From NCBI RefSeq assembly GCF_040546585.1, contig NZ_JBEPOC010000001.1, positions 2,914,001 to 2,978,000 on the forward strand: DNA of 64,000 nt. The letters run 5' to 3'. The translations under genes were made by a program, and so were the position numbers. The DNA comes from Marmoricola sp. OAE513. GTDB lineage: Bacteria > Actinomycetota > Actinomycetes > Propionibacteriales > Nocardioidaceae. The notes under the pieces are model-generated. The model worked only from the letters and a program-made list of their open reading frames with translations, searched no databases and was not told the DNA's origin. Of this stretch, positions 9,225 to 17,999 are shown in pieces (position 1 is the first letter of the stretch; each line of letters opens with the position of its first letter).

Positions 9225-9307
9225 GACTACTTCAACAGCGCTCGGTCAGCGGGTGTTCCATGACGGAGATCACGGCGTCCGCGGTTAATGAGCGTTCACC
9301 CCAGATT

Positions 9308-9313
9308 TAGTAT
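9308..9313 (+). promoter_or_regulatory. -10 element of fadE (TAGTAT, leaderless)
   Basis: TAGTAT ends 7 nt before ATG 9321 and decides this start over upstream in-frame codons at 9288 and 9312. Confidence 0.6.
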
Positions 9314-9320
9314 GGACCCC

Positions 9321-10493
9321 ATGGATTCTGACTTCCCGCTGTACGGCCTCTCCGAGGAACACCGCGAGATCCGCAAGGTGATCCGTGAGATCGCCGAGGC
9401 GAAGATCGGCCCGTTCGCCGCTGCGGTGGACGAGGAGGCCCGGTACCCGCAGGAGGCCGCCGACGCGCTGCTCGCGACCGGCTTCCACGCTCCGCACGTG
9501 CCCGAGCAGTACGGCGGCGCCGATGCGGACGCGCTGGCCACCGTGCTCGTGATCGAGGAGGTCGCGCGGGTCTGCGTGTCCTCCTCCCTGATCCCGGCGG
9601 TGAACAAGCTGGGCTCGCTGCCGGTGCAGATCTCCGGGTCCGAGGAGCTCAAGGCGAAGTACCTGTCCAAGCTGGCTGCCGGTGAGGGCGGGTTCTCCTA
9701 CGCGCTGTCCGAGCCGGACGCCGGGTCGGACGCCGGTGGCATGACCACCCGCGCCGTCCGCGACGGCGACTCCTACGTCCTGAACGGCGTGAAGCGCTGG
9801 ATCACCAACGCCGGCGAGTCCGAGTACTACACCGTCATGGCAGTCACCGACCCCTCCTCGCGCACCCGCGGCATCTCGGCGTTCGTCGTGGAGAAGTCCG
9901 ACGAGGGCGTCTCCTTTGGCGCGCCGGAGAAGAAGCTCGGCATCAAGGGATCTCCGACCAAGGAGGTCTACCTCGACAACGTGCGGATCCCCGCGGACCG
10001 GATCATCGGCGCCGAGGGCACCGGGTTCGAGACCGCGATGCGCACCCTCGACCACACCCGCGTCACCATCGCCGCGCAGGCCGTCGGCGTCGCCCAGGGT
10101 GCGCTCGACTACGCGCTCGAGTACGCGATGGAGCGCCAGCAGTTCGGCAAGTCGATCTCGGAGTTCCAGGGCCTGCAGTTCATGCTCGCCGACATGGGCA
10201 TGAAGGTCGAGGCTGCCCGCCAGATGACGTACGCCGCCGCCGGTCGCTCCGAGCGGGGCGACACGGACCTCACCTTCTTCGGCGCCGCGGCCAAGTGCTT
10301 CGCCTCCGACGTCGCGATGGAGGTCACCACCAACGCGGTGCAGGTCCTCGGTGGCTACGGCTACACCCGCGACTACCCGGTCGAGCGGATGATGCGCGAC
10401 GCCAAGATCACCCAGATCTACGAGGGCACCAACCAGGTCCAGCGCATCGTGATGGCTCGCCAGCTGCTGGCTGGTGTCCAGGCGATGCTCTGA
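9321..10493 (+). CDS. Acyl-CoA dehydrogenase
   Basis: A 390-residue FAD-dependent dehydrogenase that introduces the alpha-beta double bond in acyl-CoA and passes electrons to ETF. The family motifs are [81 protein letters not shown] and [10 protein letters not shown]. Glu368 in YEGTNQ is the expected catalytic base. It resembles short/branched-chain enzymes (butyryl- or isobutyryl-CoA type), though specificity cannot be read reliably. A strong hairpin follows the stop. Confidence 0.92.
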
Positions 10494-10586: not shown

Positions 10587-11636
10587 TCAGCCGACCTTGA
10601 TCGTGCTGGTGTCGATGACGACCCGGTAGCGGACGTCGCCGGCCACCACGCGCTCGTATGCCGCGTCGACCTCGTCGGCGGTGATGGTCTCGATCGTTGC
10701 GCCGATGCCGTGCTCGGCGCAGAAGTCGAGCATCGCCTGGGTCTCCGGGATGCCGCCGATGTTCGAGCCGGCGAGCACCTTGGAGCCGCCGACGACCGCG
10801 AACGGCGCGACGTCGTAGTTCTCGCTCGGGATGCCGACGTTGACCAGCGCGCCCTGCGGCTTGAGCAGGCCGAGGTAGTCGTTCATCGCCAGCGGAGCGC
10901 TCACGGTGTTGATGATCAGGTCGAACTTGCCGCGGTTCTCGGCGAGCGTGCGGCGGGTGGCCGCGATGTAGCCGGTCGCGCCCAGAGCGGTCGCGTCGTC
11001 CTTCTTGTCCTCGCTGCGCGAGATGCCGGTAACCTCGGCACCCAGGGCGGCAGCGAGCTTCACGGCCATGTGGCCCAGGCCGCCGAGGCCGACCACGGCG
11101 ACCTTCTTGCCCGGACCGGCGCCCCAGCGCTGGAGCGGCGACCACACGGTGATGCCGGCGCACAGCAGCGGGGCGGCCTCGTCGAGCTCGATGCCCTCGG
11201 GGATTTTGACGGCGAACCGCTCGGTGACGACGACCTGCTGGGCGTAGCCGCCGAGCGTCGGGTTCCCGTCGTAGCCGCGCCCGTTGTAGGTCATCACGTT
11301 GCCGTTCAGGCAGAACTGCTCCTGGCCGTCCTTGCACTGCTCGCAGTCGCCGCAGGAGTCGACCATGCAGCCGACGCCGACCCGGTCGCCGACCTTGTGG
11401 CGCGTGACGGCACTCCCGACAGCGGCAACGGTGCCAGCGATCTCGTGACCCGGGACCATCGGGAAGATGGCCCGGCCCCACTCCTCGCGGACCTGGTGGA
11501 TGTCGCTGTGGCAGATGCCGGCGTACGCGATGTCGATGAGGATGTCGTTGTCGCCGAGGTCGCGGTGCTCGACGGTGCGCTGGACGAACGGTGCGCCGGC
11601 GGACTCGGCGACGAGGGCAGAAGTCTGGATGCTCAT
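10587..11636 (-). CDS. Zinc-dependent alcohol dehydrogenase (cinnamyl-alcohol-dehydrogenase type)
   Basis: A 349-residue MDR-family dehydrogenase. Catalytic zinc ligands Cys42 (GICHSD), His64-Glu65 (VPGHE) and the Cys of PLLCAGITVWSPL are present, and the structural zinc lobe uses Cys95, 98, 101 and 109. The dinucleotide fold has VVGLGGLGHMAVK, followed by ISRSEDKK; a Ser-Arg after the second strand is typical of NADP use. It oxidises primary alcohols or reduces aldehydes; physiological substrate unknown. ATG 11636 begins the conserved domain; a GTG five codons earlier (11651) is the alternative. It follows the isomerase gene on the same strand behind a hairpin. Confidence 0.9.
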   Translation of the reverse strand: MSIQTSALVAESAGAPFVQRTVEHRDLGDNDILIDIAYAGICHSDIHQVREEWGRAIFPMVPGHEIAGTVAAVGSAVTRHKVGDRVGVGCMVDSCGDCEQCKDGQEQFCLNGNVMTYNGRGYDGNPTLGGYAQQVVVTERFAVKIPEGIELDEAAPLLCAGITVWSPLQRWGAGPGKKVAVVGLGGLGHMAVKLAAALGAEVTGISRSEDKKDDATALGATGYIAATRRTLAENRGKFDLIINTVSAPLAMNDYLGLLKPQGALVNVGIPSENYDVAPFAVVGGSKVLAGSNIGGIPETQAMLDFCAEHGIGATIETITADEVDAAYERVVAGDVRYRVVIDTSTIKVG

Positions 11637-11682: not shown

Positions 11683-12057
11683 TCACTCGAAGGTGAGGTC
11701 CCCGTCGTTCCACCACGCGCGCATGGTCGTGATCAGACCGGCCTCGTCGAAGGTCATGACCTCCATCGGCTGCATGACCGCGAAACCGGCGCCGGTGTCG
11801 GTGGAGATGTGGAAGTGGAACGCCGCCTCGCCACCCGCGGTGCGGATGGTCAGCAGCTCGGTCGTGATCTTCAGCGACTCGATGGTCGCGTAGAAGCCGC
11901 GGATCGCGTCACGTCCGTGCAACGGGTCCGAGCCGACCGGGTCCTCGAGGGTGGCGTCCTCGGCGTACAGCGCCGCGATCTCGTCAGCGGTCCCGGTCGC
12001 GACCAGGCCCAGGTAGGTGCGGACGGTGGCCTCGGCCTGCTCGTTCGTGATTGACAT
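11683..12057 (-). CDS. Steroid delta-isomerase homologue (ketosteroid isomerase, NTF2-like)
   Basis: A 124-residue NTF2-like protein very close in pattern to Comamonas 3-oxo-delta5-steroid isomerase (125 residues). VRTYLGLV places Tyr15 at the oxyanion Tyr14, DATLEDPVGSDP places Asp39 at the catalytic base Asp38, and QPMEVMTF puts Glu99 where that enzyme has Asp99. The reaction would move the delta5 double bond to delta4 in 3-ketosteroids. The start codon overlaps a 14-bp palindrome matching the KstR operator consensus (12057-12070), which supports a sterol-catabolic role. No other steroid genes flank it. A SnoaL-like function on another substrate remains possible. Confidence 0.8.
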   Translation of the reverse strand: MSITNEQAEATVRTYLGLVATGTADEIAALYAEDATLEDPVGSDPLHGRDAIRGFYATIESLKITTELLTIRTAGGEAAFHFHISTDTGAGFAVMQPMEVMTFDEAGLITTMRAWWNDGDLTFE

Positions 12058-12091: not shown

Positions 12092-14530
12092 CTACCACCC
12101 GGCACCGAAGCAGAGCAGCGGCACGATGTCGTCGGTCTCCGCGCTGACCTGGGCCAGCGCGTCCGCCGGCGCGGTGCCAGCGGCGACCAGCTGGTGCCAG
12201 GACGCGAACACCTCGCAAGCCAGGTCGTCGGCCAGCAGCGCGAGCGAGGAGATCACGGTGCGGGCACCGGCGTGCAGCCAGACCGCGCTCATCCCGACGG
12301 ACTCCTCGCCGTGCAGCACCGAGGACTGCCCCAGGTCGCAGGCCGACAGGACGACCACCTCGGGGACGCGGGGCAGCAGGTCGATGTCGTGGCCGAACCA
12401 CGGACCGTCGGCCAGCTCGACCGCCGCGAAGAGCGGGTGGTCCCCGGGGTGCGATCCGTGTCCGGCGATGTGCAGCAGGTCGGTCCGTGCGGCCAGCCAC
12501 CCGGCGCGGGCGGAGTCGGCCTCGGGGCCGGCGAGGACGTGACCGCGCGGCCAGCTGTCGTTCGCGCGGCGTACCTCCTCCTCGGCACGGGCCAGCCGTG
12601 GCCCGGCCAGGAACCCCGCTTCCCGTACGGCGGCGATCGGGCGGTCTGCGGCGTTGAGCCAGCTGGTCGCCGACGTCGGGACGGTGACCGGGCGTCCGAC
12701 CAGGCCGGGGAGCTCGGTCCAGGGGGTACCGGTCAGCAGGGCCGACGGCGTGAGCACCAGTCGTCGGTAGCCGACCGTCGCGAGGGTCGGGCGGATAAGC
12801 ACGTCGGCGACCTTGGCGAGGTCGGCACGCAAGGAGGTCTTCACGGTGTCGCCCATCGGGGTGCCGCGGTTCTGTGCGGCGAAGTCGAGGTCGGCGGCGA
12901 TGCGGTCGAGCAGGGTGCGGACCGGCGCGGCATCGCCGAGCGGGATCACCACCGCCTGGTCCGCGGTCACGGCGAGCGCGGTGAGCGTGCCGTCCAGGAC
13001 GATGTGCGCGATCAGGGCGCTGTCGTCCACGGCCAGCCGGGTCTGCAGTGTCGCGAGGTCGGCCGGCTCACCGACGGTGCCCTGCGCCGCGAACCAGCTG
13101 TGCGCGCGGATGCGCTCGCGGAGCCGGCGTCGGGTGGCCAGGTCGGACGGATCGGCAACGCGGAGCGCAGTCAGGTCGGCCGCGAGCTCAGGGTCCGGCG
13201 GTGGCCGCAGCGAGGTCACCCGGGACGCCAGCGCGCGAGCGCGTTCGGACCACTCGAAGACCACTGTGGGGCTGCCGTCGGCCATCGCGGCCCGGAGCCC
13301 GAGGCGCGCCAGGTGCTGGCCGTGGCCGACGGCAGATGTCTGCAGGTCCAGGCTGCCGAAGGTGGACTGCCAGGCGTGCAGCTCGGCGAGGCCCTTGCGG
13401 GCGTAGTCCCGAGCGCGACCGTGGTGCTCGTGAGCGGCCGCGATCTCGGCCCGCACCTCCCGCGCGAGAAGGCGGGAGGTGATGGGGGAGTCCTGCGTCG
13501 TCCGAACCCTGGCCGCGCGGACGGCTGCCTCGACGAGGTCGCGCTTGCGCACAGCGTGGCGGGCCGAGTGCAGGATCAAGCGGTCGGCATCCTGCCGGTG
13601 GCCGGTAGTACGCAGCGCCTCGGCGAGCTTGTCCGCGCGACCGAGCAGGCTAGGGGCCGGGCGACCGCCCTCTACCTCGGCGATCACGGCGAATGCGCGG
13701 GCTCGGTCGGCCCACGCCGTGCTCCCGTGCGTGGCGAAACGGCGTGCTGCGCTCTGGGCGAGCGAGCGGCTGCGAGCTGGGTCGTCGAGGAGCAGGGTCC
13801 TTGCCAGTATCAACTCGCACTCGGCCTGGAAACGGGGCAGCTTCTCGCGCCCGTACGCCGCCGCCGCCTCTTCGAGGGCGGCCGCGGCCTCATGTGTGCG
13901 ACCCGACGCCAGCAGTACTTCCGCGCGATCCTGTTGGACGATGGCAGCGTTCACCCTCGACACCTTGGACAGGGTGTCCGCCGCAGCGTCCATTCCACGG
14001 ATGGCCGCAACCAGGTCGTTGCGCAGCAGGTGGGTGTACCCGACGTTGAACAAGGCTTTGGCATGCTCGATCTCGTCGCCGGCCCGTTCGAAGTAGTGAG
14101 CGGCGTTTGAGAAGTCCGACGCTGCATCGGCCGCAGAGCCACGTTGGAGGTGAAGCCCCCCTCGGTTCAAATAGGTTCGGCCGAGATGATCCGGCTCATC
14201 TCGCAAGCGGTCGATCGCCGAGTCGAAGTGCTGGGTCGCGCTGACCTGGTCACCCCCACGCATGAGAAGCAGGGCGAGTTGGGACTCAGCCAACCCCAAA
14301 GAGAGCGGAGACGCACCCGGCCGAGAAAGCACCCGTTCGCACAGAAGGACCGCATCGCGGAGATGACCAGTCTCCGCGGCGCCGTATGCCTCCGTCACGT
14401 CGAGGCGATCGATCAGGTCCGGATCAGCCGTGAGAAGTCGTGCGCGCCCAACGAGTTCCAACGCCGTCGCGTAGTCGTTGGCGTTTCCGGCCGCGACCGC
14501 CCTGCTGTGAAGCTCTTCAGCGCTACTCAC
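12092..14530 (-). CDS. TPR-CHAT protein (caspase-like protease)
   Basis: An 812-residue protein. Residues 1 to about 400 are tandem helical repeats of TPR type (for example FNVGYTHLLRNDLVAAI, AEVLLASGRTHEAAAALEEA). Residues about 520-812 form a CHAT domain with the protease dyad in place: His691 in LLHIAGHGSHPG and Cys731 in VVVLSACDLGQS. CHAT domains are clan CD cysteine proteases related to caspases and separases, often activated by the attached repeats in signalling or defence. There is no signal peptide, so it is cytosolic. GTG 14530 lies 6 nt after the subtilase stop, with GAGG overlapping that stop. It is the last gene of the sigma-subtilase-CHAT operon. Substrate unknown. Confidence 0.88.
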   Translation of the reverse strand: MSSAEELHSRAVAAGNANDYATALELVGRARLLTADPDLIDRLDVTEAYGAAETGHLRDAVLLCERVLSRPGASPLSLGLAESQLALLLMRGGDQVSATQHFDSAIDRLRDEPDHLGRTYLNRGGLHLQRGSAADAASDFSNAAHYFERAGDEIEHAKALFNVGYTHLLRNDLVAAIRGMDAAADTLSKVSRVNAAIVQQDRAEVLLASGRTHEAAAALEEAAAAYGREKLPRFQAECELILARTLLLDDPARSRSLAQSAARRFATHGSTAWADRARAFAVIAEVEGGRPAPSLLGRADKLAEALRTTGHRQDADRLILHSARHAVRKRDLVEAAVRAARVRTTQDSPITSRLLAREVRAEIAAAHEHHGRARDYARKGLAELHAWQSTFGSLDLQTSAVGHGQHLARLGLRAAMADGSPTVVFEWSERARALASRVTSLRPPPDPELAADLTALRVADPSDLATRRRLRERIRAHSWFAAQGTVGEPADLATLQTRLAVDDSALIAHIVLDGTLTALAVTADQAVVIPLGDAAPVRTLLDRIAADLDFAAQNRGTPMGDTVKTSLRADLAKVADVLIRPTLATVGYRRLVLTPSALLTGTPWTELPGLVGRPVTVPTSATSWLNAADRPIAAVREAGFLAGPRLARAEEEVRRANDSWPRGHVLAGPEADSARAGWLAARTDLLHIAGHGSHPGDHPLFAAVELADGPWFGHDIDLLPRVPEVVVLSACDLGQSSVLHGEESVGMSAVWLHAGARTVISSLALLADDLACEVFASWHQLVAAGTAPADALAQVSAETDDIVPLLCFGAGW

Positions 14531-14536
14531 GCGACC

Positions 14537-16294
14537 TCACGGCTCGAGCTTCTTCTTCTGGTCGCTGCCCTGGGTGATGAGAGGCCAGGCCCTGGCGACT
14601 GCCGACTTGCTGTCGTCCGCAGTCTTCGGGACGGGGCCCATCCACTGGGCCATCAGACCGGCCCACAACGGCGCCGCGAACGAGGTTCCACTCCATAGCC
14701 CGAACCCGCTGCGGTAGTCGTCCGGGTCGATGGACTCCCGGATCCGGCCGTCGAGGTTGATCCGGGCCACCGGTTCGTAGCCGCCCTCGAAGTTCGTCGG
14801 CACGGTGCTCATCACGGCCGCGCCGGGCGCGAAAGCGCGCACCCAGTCCCCGGCGTTGCTGAACAACGCGTCGCTCCCGTTCGGGTTGAGGGCGCCGACG
14901 GAGACGACCGGGACCACCGAGCCGTCGACCTTGTAAGGCCCGTTCCCCGAGATCCACGGCGAGAACGCAGCAGGGAAGCAGGGGCGCAGCGTCGAGTCGT
15001 TCCCGGCCGAGACCACCACAGTGACGCCCAGCGCGCTGAGGTCCGCGAGCGGCTTGTGCAGCGAGGCGTCAAAGGCGATGTCCTCGGCCGTCTCGTGGTA
15101 GTAGCCGAGCGAGAGCGCGAGGATGTCGATGGCACGACCGCCCTCCTGGTTCTTGCGGTATCGGTTGACCAGCTCGGCGATCTTGCCGAGCGCGGTGAGC
15201 AGGTCGCTCTCGGTGATCGGTCCGGCCGACGGGGTGATTCGCCACGCGAGGATGTCGGCGTCCGGGCAGGCCTGGTGCACCAGGCCAGCCATGAAGGTCC
15301 CGTGGCCGGAGAAGGTGTCGAGATCGCCGTCGAGCATGCCCGCCTGGTCCGGGATGACGTCGGGTTCGAGCGGGTTGGTCTTGCTCGCTTTCCCGTAGCC
15401 GATGTCCTCGCCGTCCAGCTGGATGCCCTTCTGGACCACGTCGTCGAGCCACGGGTGCGTGCCGCAACCCGTGTCCAGTAGCGCAACCACCGGGCGACGT
15501 CCCCCGCCGAGCGCATCCTCCGAGATCCTTCGAGGCTCCGGCCCGACGTAGGCGATGGGCTGACGACCGCCCGACCCCGGGTAGCCGTAGGAGTCGACGG
15601 CGCCGCCTGACCCTTCAGTCCACGGATGCCCGGAGGTGAACGGGTGGCCGGAGGTGAACGGGTGGCCGGACGTGAACGGGTGACCGGAGGTGAAGGGGTG
15701 ACCCGAAGTGAAGGGGTGACCCGAAGTGAACGGGTGACCCGAGGTGAACGGGTTGGCCGTGACATCACCGATCATCAACAAGTGGTCCAGGCCGAGCCCG
15801 CCGACCCGGCTGCCACGGTGCCGACGCACGCGTTGGAGAAGCACCCAGGCATCGGGTGCTTCGGGAGCGCTGTCGTCAGGAGCCAGGCGGAGCACGGCGA
15901 AGTGAGTCCGGTACTCCGGCGGAGCGTCCTCCTCGAGAGGTTCGATCGCTGCGAGACGGTCGGCGTCGTCGGTGTCGACGACGATGCCGAGCTCGCCGGC
16001 GATCAGGACGATATCCGCCAGCAGATTGCTCTCGGTGAGGAGTGCCTCCTGCGAGACCATGAGCCGCGTGGCGGCGTACCAGGTCGGTTTGGGCGCGAAC
16101 CCGCCCGGTGCTGGGGGCAGCGCCTTCGCCGGGTCCAGGCCGCGCGGTCGGATCTCCTTCAGGCGGGCTTCCTTGGCGGCCGCGACCGCGGCCATCCGTG
16201 CTTCTCGTCGTGCGGCAGACGCGTCCGCGTCCTCGCGACTGAGCCGTTCTGCGCGACGGTCGAGCCAGGTGGGCTTGTTCTTCTCATCAGGCAT
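14537..16294 (-). CDS. Intracellular S8 subtilisin-like protease with PFTSGH repeats
   Basis: A 585-residue subtilase. The catalytic set is intact: Asp274 in VALLDTGCG, His331 in SGHGTFMAGL, Asn432 in VVVSAGND and Ser538 in SGTSFAAPLWAG. The N-terminus (MPDEKNKPTWLDRRAER) is charged and has no signal peptide or membrane segment, so it should work in the cytosol. Between the N-terminal domain (1-180) and the protease lie seven exact PFTSGH hexapeptides at 182-223. ATG 16294 has GAGG 7 nt upstream. It lies 9 nt after the small beta-rich protein gene and 6 nt before the CHAT gene, so co-expression is near certain. The repeats could be a tether, an inhibitor segment or an autocleavage site; none is shown. 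Confidence 0.9.
   Translation of the reverse strand: MPDEKNKPTWLDRRAERLSREDADASAARREARMAAVAAAKEARLKEIRPRGLDPAKALPPAPGGFAPKPTWYAATRLMVSQEALLTESNLLADIVLIAGELGIVVDTDDADRLAAIEPLEEDAPPEYRTHFAVLRLAPDDSAPEAPDAWVLLQRVRRHRGSRVGGLGLDHLLMIGDVTANPFTSGHPFTSGHPFTSGHPFTSGHPFTSGHPFTSGHPFTSGHPWTEGSGGAVDSYGYPGSGGRQPIAYVGPEPRRISEDALGGGRRPVVALLDTGCGTHPWLDDVVQKGIQLDGEDIGYGKASKTNPLEPDVIPDQAGMLDGDLDTFSGHGTFMAGLVHQACPDADILAWRITPSAGPITESDLLTALGKIAELVNRYRKNQEGGRAIDILALSLGYYHETAEDIAFDASLHKPLADLSALGVTVVVSAGNDSTLRPCFPAAFSPWISGNGPYKVDGSVVPVVSVGALNPNGSDALFSNAGDWVRAFAPGAAVMSTVPTNFEGGYEPVARINLDGRIRESIDPDDYRSGFGLWSGTSFAAPLWAGLMAQWMGPVPKTADDSKSAVARAWPLITQGSDQKKKLEP
15627..15752 (-). repeat. Seven tandem 18-bp units encoding PFTSGH
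   Basis: Seven consecutive 18-nt units, each differing from its neighbours at a few synonymous positions, in frame in the subtilase gene. Synonymous divergence with an identical peptide in every unit implies selection on the hexapeptide. Confidence 0.95.
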
Positions 16295-16303
16295 GGCGGA
16301 ACC

Positions 16304-16834
16304 TCAGATCCAGAAGGGAGGGGTGACAAGCGGACGGGCACTGCCGGGCCCCGAGGCCTGGTCCGAGACTGGTTCCGAGACAAAGGTGAGGCGGCACGCC
16401 CCGGTCGGCGTGACCGGGAACTCGAACCGCCCCGACTCACCGACGCGGGTCTCGTCGGTGGTGGGTTTCTTGCCCATCGAGGTCAGGAAGACCGTCATGG
16501 GCTGGGCGGGCACGACCCAGCCGTCGAGGCGCGCCTGGCGGGCACTCCGGGAGATCCGCACCTGGACGCGGAAGCCCGGCCCGAGGTACTCCAGCGACCA
16601 GGTGCCCACCTCCTCGGGTGCGCGCAGCATGGTGACCGAGCGGACACCGGAGAGCTCCTTGTCCCACTCGACCAGGGTCAGCAGCTCGGCGTCGAGGTCG
16701 TTGGTCTCGATCCGCGCGAGCACGCCCTCGGCGAGGTCGTCCGGGGGAGGGTCGAGCTCGTCCCAGAGCTCGGCGATCGCGTCGAGCAGCTCGGCGTCGG
16801 CGGGCGTCTCGGTCGGCTCCTCGGGATCAGCCAT
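16304..16834 (-). CDS. Small beta-rich protein between sigma factor and subtilase
   Basis: A 176-residue protein of unrecognised function. The acidic helical N-terminus (about 1-65, containing DPPPDDLAEGVLARIETNDLD) is followed by a beta-rich domain: EVGTWSLEYLGPGF, RLDGWVVPAQPMTVFLTS, SGRFEFPVTPTGACRLTFV, ending TPPFWI. The DGW-PAQP-SGRFEFP pattern resembles carboxypeptidase-regulatory-like or Ig-like sandwiches. Its ATG overlaps the sigma stop by 1 nt (TGATG), so it is coupled to the sigma factor; an anti-sigma or sensor role is a reasonable guess only. A paralogue lacking the N-terminal part lies at 17580-17999 (51 of 79 aligned residues identical by eye). A GTG at 16837 is an alternative start. 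Confidence 0.75.
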   Translation of the reverse strand: MADPEEPTETPADAELLDAIAELWDELDPPPDDLAEGVLARIETNDLDAELLTLVEWDKELSGVRSVTMLRAPEEVGTWSLEYLGPGFRVQVRISRSARQARLDGWVVPAQPMTVFLTSMGKKPTTDETRVGESGRFEFPVTPTGACRLTFVSEPVSDQASGPGSARPLVTPPFWI

Positions 16835-17406
16835 CACGCGGCTCCTTCGCTGACCAGCTCGGCACGGAGCTTGTCGAGGCAGCGCGCCCGGGTCGGGCCG
16901 ATGCTCCCGACCGGCATGTCCAGGGCGGCCGACACCTCGGCGTACTCGGGGCGCGGCCCCGCGGCGAGCATCCGCAATAGTGCCTGGCAGCGCTGCTCCA
17001 GCCGGCTGAGGCAGAGCCGCAGCCGAGCGCGGTCATCAGCGAGCACCACGTCGTCCTCGGGTCCGTCGACCACCGGCAACGAGGAGCCCAGGACGTCGTC
17101 GTCGGTGGCCTGCTCGCGGCGCACCTTCTTGCTCGTCCGCCAGGCCTCGCGACGCGCGGTCGTGCACAACCAGCCGGAGACGGCCATCGGGTTCTCGATG
17201 GTGGGCGCGTGGTCGACCAGCGCGAGCCACGCGTTCTGGACGACGTCCTCGGCCGAGGCCCGGTCGAGTCCTGCCGCGCGGGCGATCTGCCACAGCGTCG
17301 GACTGAGCAGCCGCACCAGCTCGTCGAGCGCCTCCCGGTCGCCGTCGCGCCACGCCGTGAACGCGGCGGCCGACGCCGTCCACCGGGTAGTACCTGGACC
17401 TTGCAC
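16834..17406 (-). CDS. ECF-like RNA polymerase sigma factor
   Basis: A 190-residue two-domain sigma-70 protein. Region 2 spans about 14-90 (AFTAWRDGDREALDELV, ASAEDVVQNAWLALVDH, GWLCTTARREAWR). Region 4 spans about 134-185 (LEQRCQALLRMLAAG, YAEVSAALDMPVGSIGPTRARCLDKLR). There is no region 1.1 or 3. It should direct RNA polymerase to its own operon and perhaps others. GTG 17406 has GGGGAA 9 nt upstream; GTG 17415 in frame is possible. It heads the four-gene operon with the small beta-rich protein, subtilase and CHAT protein. No typical zinc-binding anti-sigma gene is adjacent. Confidence 0.85.
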   Translation of the reverse strand: MQGPGTTRWTASAAAFTAWRDGDREALDELVRLLSPTLWQIARAAGLDRASAEDVVQNAWLALVDHAPTIENPMAVSGWLCTTARREAWRTSKKVRREQATDDDVLGSSLPVVDGPEDDVVLADDRARLRLCLSRLEQRCQALLRMLAAGPRPEYAEVSAALDMPVGSIGPTRARCLDKLRAELVSEGAA

Positions 17407-17461
17407 GTTGATCACTTCCCCACCGAGGAACAACGATTGCCGCGTGACACGACCTGGGGAA

Positions 17462-17467
17462 AATCTA
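17462..17467 (-). promoter_or_regulatory. Likely -10 of the sigma-subtilase-CHAT operon (TAGATT)
   Basis: TAGATT on the minus strand is the only TANNNT hexamer close upstream of the sigma gene, giving a leader of roughly 50 nt. No clear -35 is seen, so an autoregulated promoter is possible. Confidence 0.4.
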
Positions 17468-17579
17468 GTGGAGCCGACGGGGCACCGACAGACGTACGAG
17501 CAGGTCAGAAGGGGTTTTGCCGCCAGCTTCGACACGGCGAAACAGGGGCATACCGACGCAGGTGCGCACATACGGGTCC

Positions 17580-17999
17580 TCAGATCCAGAACGGCGGCGT
17601 GGCCGGTGGGCGCCCGGGGGTGGGCAGGACGAAGCTCATCCGGCACGCACCGTTGGGGGCGGTCGGGAACTCGAACCTGCCGGAGTCGCTGACCTGCGCC
17701 TCGAGCACGACGGGGTGCCGCAGCAGCGAGGTGAGGAACACCTTGATCGGTTGGGCCGGCGACATCCAGCCGTCGACCCGGACCTGACGCTGCCGGCGGG
17801 CGATCCGGAGCTGCACGTGGAAGCCGGGGCCGAGGTACTCCAGCGACCAGGTGCCGACCTCGTTGGCGATCGAGGTCGGGGCGATGCTGCGGACGTGGTC
17901 GAGGCCGGCGGGGTCGTCGACGAGCACCAGGTCCTCGGGCCAGGGGGCGTGGAAGGCAGTCACACCGACAAGGAGCCCCGGACCGGGCCGGTGATACAT
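17580..17999 (-). CDS. Truncated paralogue of the beta-rich operon protein
   Basis: A 139-residue protein sharing the C-terminal beta domain of the operon protein at 16304-16834: EVGTWSLEYLGPGF, DGW-x-x-PAQP, VFLTS, SGRFEFP, GACR and the TPPFWI ending. It lacks the acidic N-terminal helix region and has a short unrelated start. The DNA is also very similar across the shared segment, pointing to recent duplication or gene conversion. ATG 17999 is chosen for its AGGGA; GTG 17961-17963 is an alternative. It lies upstream of the sigma gene on the same strand, separated by about 170 bp that hold the operon promoter. It may regulate or be a target of the protease system. Confidence 0.65.
   Translation of the reverse strand: MYHRPGPGLLVGVTAFHAPWPEDLVLVDDPAGLDHVRSIAPTSIANEVGTWSLEYLGPGFHVQLRIARRQRQVRVDGWMSPAQPIKVFLTSLLRHPVVLEAQVSDSGRFEFPTAPNGACRMSFVLPTPGRPPATPPFWI

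Follow-up and report, generated by a model that had tools for sequence, protein, structure and literature searches.

A conserved ECF54-type sigma factor module with two proteases in Marmoricola sp. OAE513, a candidate cytoplasmic proteolytic switch

The stretch of Marmoricola sp. OAE513 DNA analyzed here (the window, 64,000 nucleotides) carries on its minus strand a compact operon encoding an extracytoplasmic function (ECF) sigma factor (SIG), a small protein (SMALL), an intracellular-type subtilase (S8) and a TPR-CHAT cysteine protease (CHAT). To judge from gene order across genomes, the four genes form a conserved module in many soil actinobacteria and are not a chance cluster. The sequence upstream of the sigma genes makes it very probable that SIG transcribes the operon that encodes it, from GTATCA-N16/17-CTCY, and that in some genomes it also transcribes an RNA or a small number of additional genes. 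It is proposed that the module may act as an ECF54-type, cytoplasmic, self-amplifying proteolytic switch, a reading on which our confidence is evenly balanced and in which the ECF54 assignment is made by gene neighborhood. The passages of PMC8999054 on ECF54, which credit the genomic context to Huang 2015 and Casas-Pastor 2021, give these sigma factors 'carboxypeptidase, subtilase, and CHAT' neighbors and report a proposal of proteolytic control without an anti-sigma factor. A first reading of the window from its letters (the original prediction) overlooked this published context, together with the promoter, a second small gene (SMALL2) and an array of hexapeptides within S8.

The four-gene module and its conservation

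The SIG gene (16834..17415) encodes 193 amino acids from a GTG start that was picked by the analyst, the longest open reading frame (ORF) extending to 17646. The product matches sigma70-ECF TIGR02937 at 57.2 bits against a cut-off of 42.9, which classes it as an ECF sigma factor, and Sigma70_r2 at 37.9 bits. The SIG stop codon overlaps the start of SMALL (GTGATGG; 16304..16837), a candidate soluble anti-sigma factor of 176-177 residues with an N-terminal region, a CarboxypepD_reg-like C-terminal half and a TPPFWI tail. A gap of 9 nt separates SMALL from S8 (14537..16294, 585 amino acids), which matches PF00082 at 72.2 bits against a cut-off of 21.8 and has the Asp/His/Ser triad of an S8 peptidase; the catalytic set D274, H331, N432 and S538 is invariant in 19/19 aligned subtilases. 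After a further 6 nt comes CHAT (12092..14530, 812 amino acids), a CHAT peptidase by its match to PF12770 (64 bits, cut-off 24) and by a His/Cys dyad, H691 and C731, that is invariant in all 16 aligned CHAT proteins. This gene is the sole CHAT match within its own genome. Pfam matches to TPR in CHAT fall under the cut-off, and the CHAT profile reaches TPR structures with a best E value of 3.3e-19.

The compact leftward run of four genes, the ECF-like sigma factor and the two proteases with intact catalytic residues were thus all as originally predicted. The extent of the unit, given as 12092..17999, held for the four genes and failed at its upstream end, since 17580-17999 contains SMALL2 and a promoter and not the sigma gene. 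SMALL2 (17580..17963, minus strand; GTG start uncertain) is a 127-residue paralogue of the SMALL C-terminal half that keeps the TPPFWI tail and lacks most of the N-terminal region.

Conservation was assessed in 94 loci, made up of 20 gathered by place, 80 named actinobacterial loci found with the subtilase profile and the window, less seven duplicates. All four genes were present in 88 of the 94, a count that is conditional and partly by construction, as loci were selected by a match to S8, CHAT or SMALL with profiles built from the window (its row set by hand) and L051-L069, so that it tells which partners follow and not how frequent the module is. The order SIG-SMALL-S8-CHAT was found in 81 loci. 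The other seven complete loci have another order, in one case (L061) due to a frame-split small gene; at L061:8005-8521 (genome G030) the gene appears divided between two frames, by a frameshift or an assembly error. The six incomplete loci comprise three with S8-CHAT only, two with SIG-SMALL-S8 and one with S8 alone, and among them L094 is a 4.1-kb contig and L146 a 3.3-kb contig. A co-occurrence check of the four families had been set in advance, and scattered homologues, which would have spoken against a unit, were not what it returned. The predicted unit of a dedicated sigma factor with two proteases is supported both by this linkage and by a conserved promoter that points to autoregulation.

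Among 58 relatives, the source genome included, SMALL was found in 24, the subtilase in 30 and CHAT in 31, some of the subtilase and CHAT matches being distant versions. An even draw of 197 genomes from the phylum contained SMALL in 10, again with the source genome included. Presence of the module is patchy across the genus. A tandem arrangement was observed at L164:7240-18681 (G151), where SMALL-S8-CHAT sets are repeated and one sigma gene was found.

The sigma promoter, its candidate targets and the region after CHAT

Upstream of the 88 SIG genes, the pattern GTATC-N17-CTC[CT] occurs in 57 and its N18 form in 14, while each other spacer from 8 to 26 accounts for 0-4. The motif reaches a density of 3.7 per kb there, compared with 0.048 per kb in the background (80 named loci, both strands). 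The predicted promoter is GTATCA-N16/17-CTCY, its core lying 5' of the sigma gene in 71/88 loci. In the window, the strict match (P1, TGTATCA-N16-CTCC, 17972..17998, minus strand) sits 5' of SMALL2, and an ATG at 17999 overlaps its -35 element. No strict match lies directly before SIG; a degenerate candidate, P2 (GTGTCA-N16-CCTC, 17425..17450, minus strand), is assigned there by its position and its similarity to the motif.

A search of the source genome with GTATCAN16-17CTCY returned four matches, against one for the reversed control pattern. Across 23 genomes of the genus, the pattern TGTATCAN16-17CTCY gave 36 sites in the 13 module-bearing genomes and 1 in the 10 others, and its reversed control gave four matches in all 23. 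With operon and adjacent sites excluded, the comparison was 24 to 1 (binomial P 1.2e-5), where the single site, in G021, is scored as module-lacking, as is G011, which has a distant version of the module only, and where one of the 24 (L229, G023) lies ~2.3 kb from the CHAT fragment of its genome. From the conserved promoter and this excess of sites it follows that SIG probably controls, besides the operon that encodes it, a small number of other genes.

By the analyst's reading, 19 of the 25 distal sites precede an ORF with a start within ~65 nt; no convincing downstream gene was found at L211, L217, L226 (source genome) or L230 (G021). Several targets recur, namely a 170-residue protein without a Pfam match (L208, L210), a 140-residue protein (L218, L220, L223), proteins binding cyclic nucleotide monophosphates (cNMP; L209, L221, L224) and an ornithine-decarboxylase-like enzyme, so read by the analyst from sequence (L222, L229). 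The 170-residue family (L208:2026-2535, L210:2026-2538 and L231-L236) has no match in Pfam or NCBIfam and is present in six of the 23 genus genomes, all of them module-bearing (6/13 vs 0/10, Fisher P 0.017). In all six genes a slightly looser motif is found 34-57 nt ahead of the matched stretch; four of the six were discovered independently of the motif. In G006 (L215), the motif precedes a Trypco1 gene that overlaps a CHAT-TPR gene (Pfam, 89.4 and 91.4 bits). At L228:1846-3265, two sigma-type sites stand before tandem near-identical genes, whose product has, by eye, a signal-peptide-like stretch.

A second copy of the promoter follows CHAT in many loci. The motif, slightly loosened, was found within 300 nt past the CHAT stop in 41/80 loci, where about one was expected from the background density. 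Of nine genomes searched, five from Microbacterium (G254-G258) have exactly two strict matches, one before the operon and one after CHAT. In 21 Microbacteriaceae sequences, this promoter is followed by a conserved, structured, apparently noncoding RNA (L108:13120-13350, L112:13078-13308, L115:13192-13422 and 18 more loci). In the alignment, 93.4% of cells pair and 15 pairs are changed on both sides, compared with 7.3 in shuffles, and 0/500 shuffles reach either value; the consensus structure was built from the same alignment on which it was scored, which favors structure. The same structure slid along the alignment scores far lower. Single sequences fold moderately better than their shuffles (L115, z -2.73; L053, z -1.79). 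Runs of at least four G are enriched, with 153 in 40 sequences compared with 108.8 (standard deviation 7.0), L147 having been dropped before the count, and 45 of the 153 are unpaired in predicted folds. Rfam gave no match at the post-CHAT RNA in six loci. Three weak Rfam matches in L130 (10329-10518) were set aside, as they score under the gathering thresholds, fall where S8 borders CHAT and seem to be chance matches.

Other arrangements were also seen after CHAT. At L087:13955, L090:13926 and L092:13501 (site starts), the promoter lies 0.7-0.95 kb past CHAT and is followed by serial strong hairpins with GGGGGA-type loops, which resemble a protein or ribosome sponge, as a resemblance only. In some Nocardioides, proteins of ~100 residues are encoded directly after the post-CHAT promoter (L072:13149-13448, L073:12990-13286, L077:13061-13375, L097:11556-11885); these have a common LSRWQV-like stretch and no Pfam match. 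In the window, a strict search found no G-loop hairpin cluster, and neither the post-CHAT RNA nor the ~100-residue protein was seen.

The hexapeptide array of the subtilase

Perfect tandem hexapeptides are present between the N-terminal part and the catalytic domain of S8 in 88/94 loci, with 2-11 copies and 56 different units, mostly [N/H]-P-[F/Y/L/V]-x-x-[T/S/G]. Two of the six loci without a perfect array, L066 and L089, have imperfect repeats. The window S8 carries seven tandem [N/H]-P-F-T-S-G units (residues 181-222; 15629..15754, minus strand), encoded by seven different DNA copies. At least three perfect copies occur in 81/93 S8 ORFs, compared with 3/2,518 other ORFs of at least 250 residues in the same loci, the latter being read from stop to stop so that many are not real genes.

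More than one DNA version of the unit was found in 85/88 arrays. Pooled copies gave a proportion of synonymous differences (pS) of 0.479 and of nonsynonymous differences (pN) of 0.050 (95 rows, seven duplicates included), pN being biased downward by the detection of arrays through identity. Close relatives can differ at one residue in all three copies, as in NPFSRT of L108 and NPFTRT of L112. The copies are identical as protein while their codons differ, and residue changes are common to all copies, and so both the hexapeptide and its sameness among copies appear to be selected within an array, while the sequence diverges between species. The duplicated module of L164 has two S8 genes with different units, HPMYDG x4 and PFTSGG x7. 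A distant module subtilase at L165:10357-12009 carries GYGDGV x7, which has no Pro-Phe core.

Covariation of the unit with the other proteins was calculated for 75 loci, after masked, short, frameshifted or array-less loci had been dropped. It is faint with the TPR part of CHAT (mean 0.041, or 0.029 without Microbacteriaceae) and about 0 with SIG and SMALL; there is slight covariation between the unit and the catalytic columns of S8 (means 0.018 and 0.026).

The array could be a pro-segment of S8, in which tandem cleavage or inhibitory segments fill the active-site cleft and set a processing timer. We hold this to be a serious possibility, at a little under an even chance. The array lies immediately before the catalytic domain in every aligned array-bearing S8, and the N-terminal part follows, by the analyst's reading, a beta-alpha-beta-beta-alpha-beta pattern as in I9 prodomains. 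The covariation of the catalytic columns also fits such a role, although it is tiny. Against it, a Pfam search up to E 1 did not find Inhibitor_I9 in the N-terminal part, and species-specific units would be odd given catalytic residues that are invariant.

The small protein, the proposed switch and known systems

The SMALL N-terminal region is full only in the sigma-coupled copy, SMALL2 keeping the C-terminal half and the tail. Extra copies of SMALL were also found in G004, G017 and G019; in G019, a close relative, L051 carries three C-terminal-half copies (9303-9815, 10591-11103, 12240-12587), all ending in TPPFW[I/V]. In loci with both an array and SMALL, Thr-Pro stands at -6/-5 in 77/85 and Phe at -3 in 78/85. 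A role for this tail as a mimic of the hexapeptide, both containing Pro and Phe, was considered and is weakened by the retention of a T-x-W/F-x-x-L/V-type tail where the distant S8 has no array.

The gene neighbors are those described for ECF54, and the weak point is the third partner. The CarboxypepD_reg-like match of SMALL reaches 16.5 bits in the window, under the cut-off of 32.3, and 31.1, just under it, in L166; against PDB sequences SMALL gave a weak match to SdrD (E 0.0016). SIG and SMALL persist as a pair, with no S8 or CHAT inside the fetched flanks (~9-10 kb), in L166, L169 and L171, and in G045 the pair (L174) is distant from S8-CHAT (L062). This persistence suggests that SMALL belongs first to SIG, and the two look like the innermost pair of the module. 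In the distant versions L175-L179, SIG-SMALL lies near a CHAT gene and an S8 gene on opposite strands. Pfam scans of the genes beside SMALL genes lacking S8 and CHAT gave no common effector, several of the chosen ORFs probably being in the wrong frame.

In the proposed switch, SMALL would be a soluble anti-sigma factor of SIG, which we hold with moderate confidence and which runs contrary to the published ECF54 proposal of control without one. Its translationally coupled N-terminal region would bind SIG, and its C-terminal half, with the conserved Thr-Pro-x-Phe-x-Ile/Leu/Val tail, would be recognized by another partner. The N-terminal part of S8, together with the hexapeptide array beside the catalytic domain, would keep this protease inactive. 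A stress signal, possibly sensed via the TPR part of CHAT, would activate one protease, which in turn would activate the other or cleave SMALL; the order of the two proteases is one that we infer. SIG, once freed, would amplify the operon, and C-terminal-half copies of the SMALL2 type could set the threshold as a competing substrate or decoy.

Several observations weigh against this reading. SMALL matches no known anti-sigma family in Pfam, NCBIfam or PDB sequence searches. Among distant loci, no SIG match adjoins the SMALL-like gene of L167 or of L170, that of L173 is accompanied only by a weak SIG match on the opposite strand, and L180 has SIG and CHAT with no SMALL match. S8-CHAT stands without SIG-SMALL in 3/94 loci (one of them the 3.3-kb contig) and S8 alone in one. 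For the promoter, the window's own SIG is preceded by the degenerate form only, and module-bearing G003 has no strict site. The three non-operon matches in the source genome look fortuitous, two lying in coding sequence by the analyst's reading and one on the antisense strand where a cNMP-type gene ends; for this reason the regulon there may be limited to the operon itself.

The absence of a recognizable anti-sigma family, and the SMALL-like genes of L167 and L170, would also fit a scheme in which the proteases hold SIG low by degrading it, with SMALL as an adaptor or scaffold, a scheme near the published ECF54 suggestion. It is considered unlikely. The SIG-SMALL pairs that lack S8 and CHAT nearby, or have them elsewhere in the genome, fit a direct regulator of SIG, and the carboxypeptidase domain of the review, which we infer to correspond to SMALL, shows no peptidase match in Pfam, NCBIfam or PDB sequence searches.

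CHAT and subtilase proteins act in defence in other bacterial systems. The module might likewise be an abortive-infection or programmed-death system, with S8 or CHAT as executioner and SIG as alarm amplifier, and the CHAT protease of Craspase offers a precedent in the parts of PMC10028731 that treat it. The Trypco1-CHAT operon behind a sigma promoter in G006 points the same way, Trypco1 being named in conflict systems in the relevant part of PMC7159879, and the patchy presence in the genus also counts for a defence role. We nevertheless regard such a role as improbable; the defence or programmed death suggested by the original prediction was not demonstrated, and nothing examined tied the window's operon to a defence island. 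PADLOC gave no system-specific match in the window, returning a generic subtilase model (E 1.2e-6) and weak matches to BovA (E 0.007) and IetS (E 0.005). Among 72,556 plasmid records a single one, 11.8 Mb long, matched the subtilase at E 1e-30, and among 50,697 phage records a single one did so at E 1e-20. A 7.5-kb record from human faeces, unannotated and labelled 'Bacteriophage sp.' (MT838002.1:12-998), encodes a subtilase catalytic domain that is 40% identical, and is possibly a mislabelled bacterial contig. The Pfam-matched neighbors examined at ~7.4-25.7 kb resemble metabolic or housekeeping genes (nitroreductase, acyl-CoA dehydrogenase, SnoaL-like, dienelactone hydrolase, enoyl-CoA hydratase, LytR-type, alpha/beta hydrolase and Cys/Met enzyme), and a SnoaL/NTF2-like gene (11683-12057, minus strand) begins 34 nt past the CHAT stop. 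The genes at distal sites, with their ornithine-decarboxylase-like enzyme and cNMP-binding proteins, also sit poorly with an executioner system. Were a death or defence trigger nonetheless the function, the Craspase-sigma circuit would have in this module a counterpart outside CRISPR.

A neutral or purely structural linker would suit the variable copy number of the array and the six loci without a perfect one, and is quite unlikely in view of the identity of copies despite differing codons, the concerted change between L108 and L112 and the rarity of such repeats in other ORFs.

A bolder extension of the proteolytic switch, which we regard as very doubtful, makes S8 an intracellular peptide-signal factory. 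Self-cleavage would free copies of the species-specific hexapeptide, these would bind the TPR part of CHAT, CHAT would destroy SMALL and the sigma switch would fire, with the structured RNA among its outputs in some species. The idea is drawn from the retention of the peptides despite codon change, the unit changes common to all copies, the two units in L164 and the faint covariation with the TPR part. If true, a processed array would add a new mode of communication between bacterial proteases, and the relay would pass a peptide second messenger between two proteases. RRNPP and arbitrium receptors are TPR proteins that bind species-specific peptides of 5-10 residues. The likeness to them is one of resemblance only, as here no exported precursor or helix-turn-helix was noted and the array lies inside a protease.

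The S8 profile's best PDB sequence match is a major intracellular serine protease (7xr8), which likens S8 to the intracellular subtilisins; it differs from them in the ~260 residues, hexapeptide array included, that precede the catalytic domain. In the RseA/DegS- and RsiW-type systems, proteolysis of an anti-sigma factor likewise frees an ECF sigma factor. The anti-sigma factor of DegS-RseA is transmembrane, as described in the part of PMC10028731 concerned, whereas inspection by eye, without a predictor, pointed to no feature of secretion or membrane location here.

The closest experimental analogue is the circuit of TPR-CHAT, Csx30 and CASP-sigma in Craspase/DiCASP (type III-E CRISPR), where the genes of a TPR-CHAT protease, a sigma factor and one more protein likewise occur together. 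This last protein, Csx30, is an inhibitor of CASP-sigma and a substrate of the TPR-CHAT protease Csx29, according to the portion of PMC10028731 devoted to them, and on the proposed model the present module would work alike. It differs in having a subtilase with a peptide array instead. Against PDB sequences, SMALL did not match Csx30 up to E 10, nor did the CHAT profile match Csx29 at E 0.001; no search was aimed at a CRISPR effector.

The likeness to ECF54 is in the gene context itself, described in the passages of PMC8999054 on this group as mainly actinobacterial, with subtilase, CHAT and carboxypeptidase-domain neighbors. It differs here in that the carboxypeptidase-type neighbor is a small protein, read as an anti-sigma factor; the promoter, regulon, hexapeptide arrays and post-CHAT RNA do not feature in those passages. 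The gene context was therefore already known, and what is added is SMALL2, the promoter and target genes, the post-CHAT promoter and RNA, the hexapeptide arrays and a candidate anti-sigma factor. The ECF54 context had left open how two proteases control a sigma factor that has no recognized anti-sigma factor, and to this question the module brings a specific promoter sequence, a few candidate target genes, a candidate anti-sigma factor and a peptide array.

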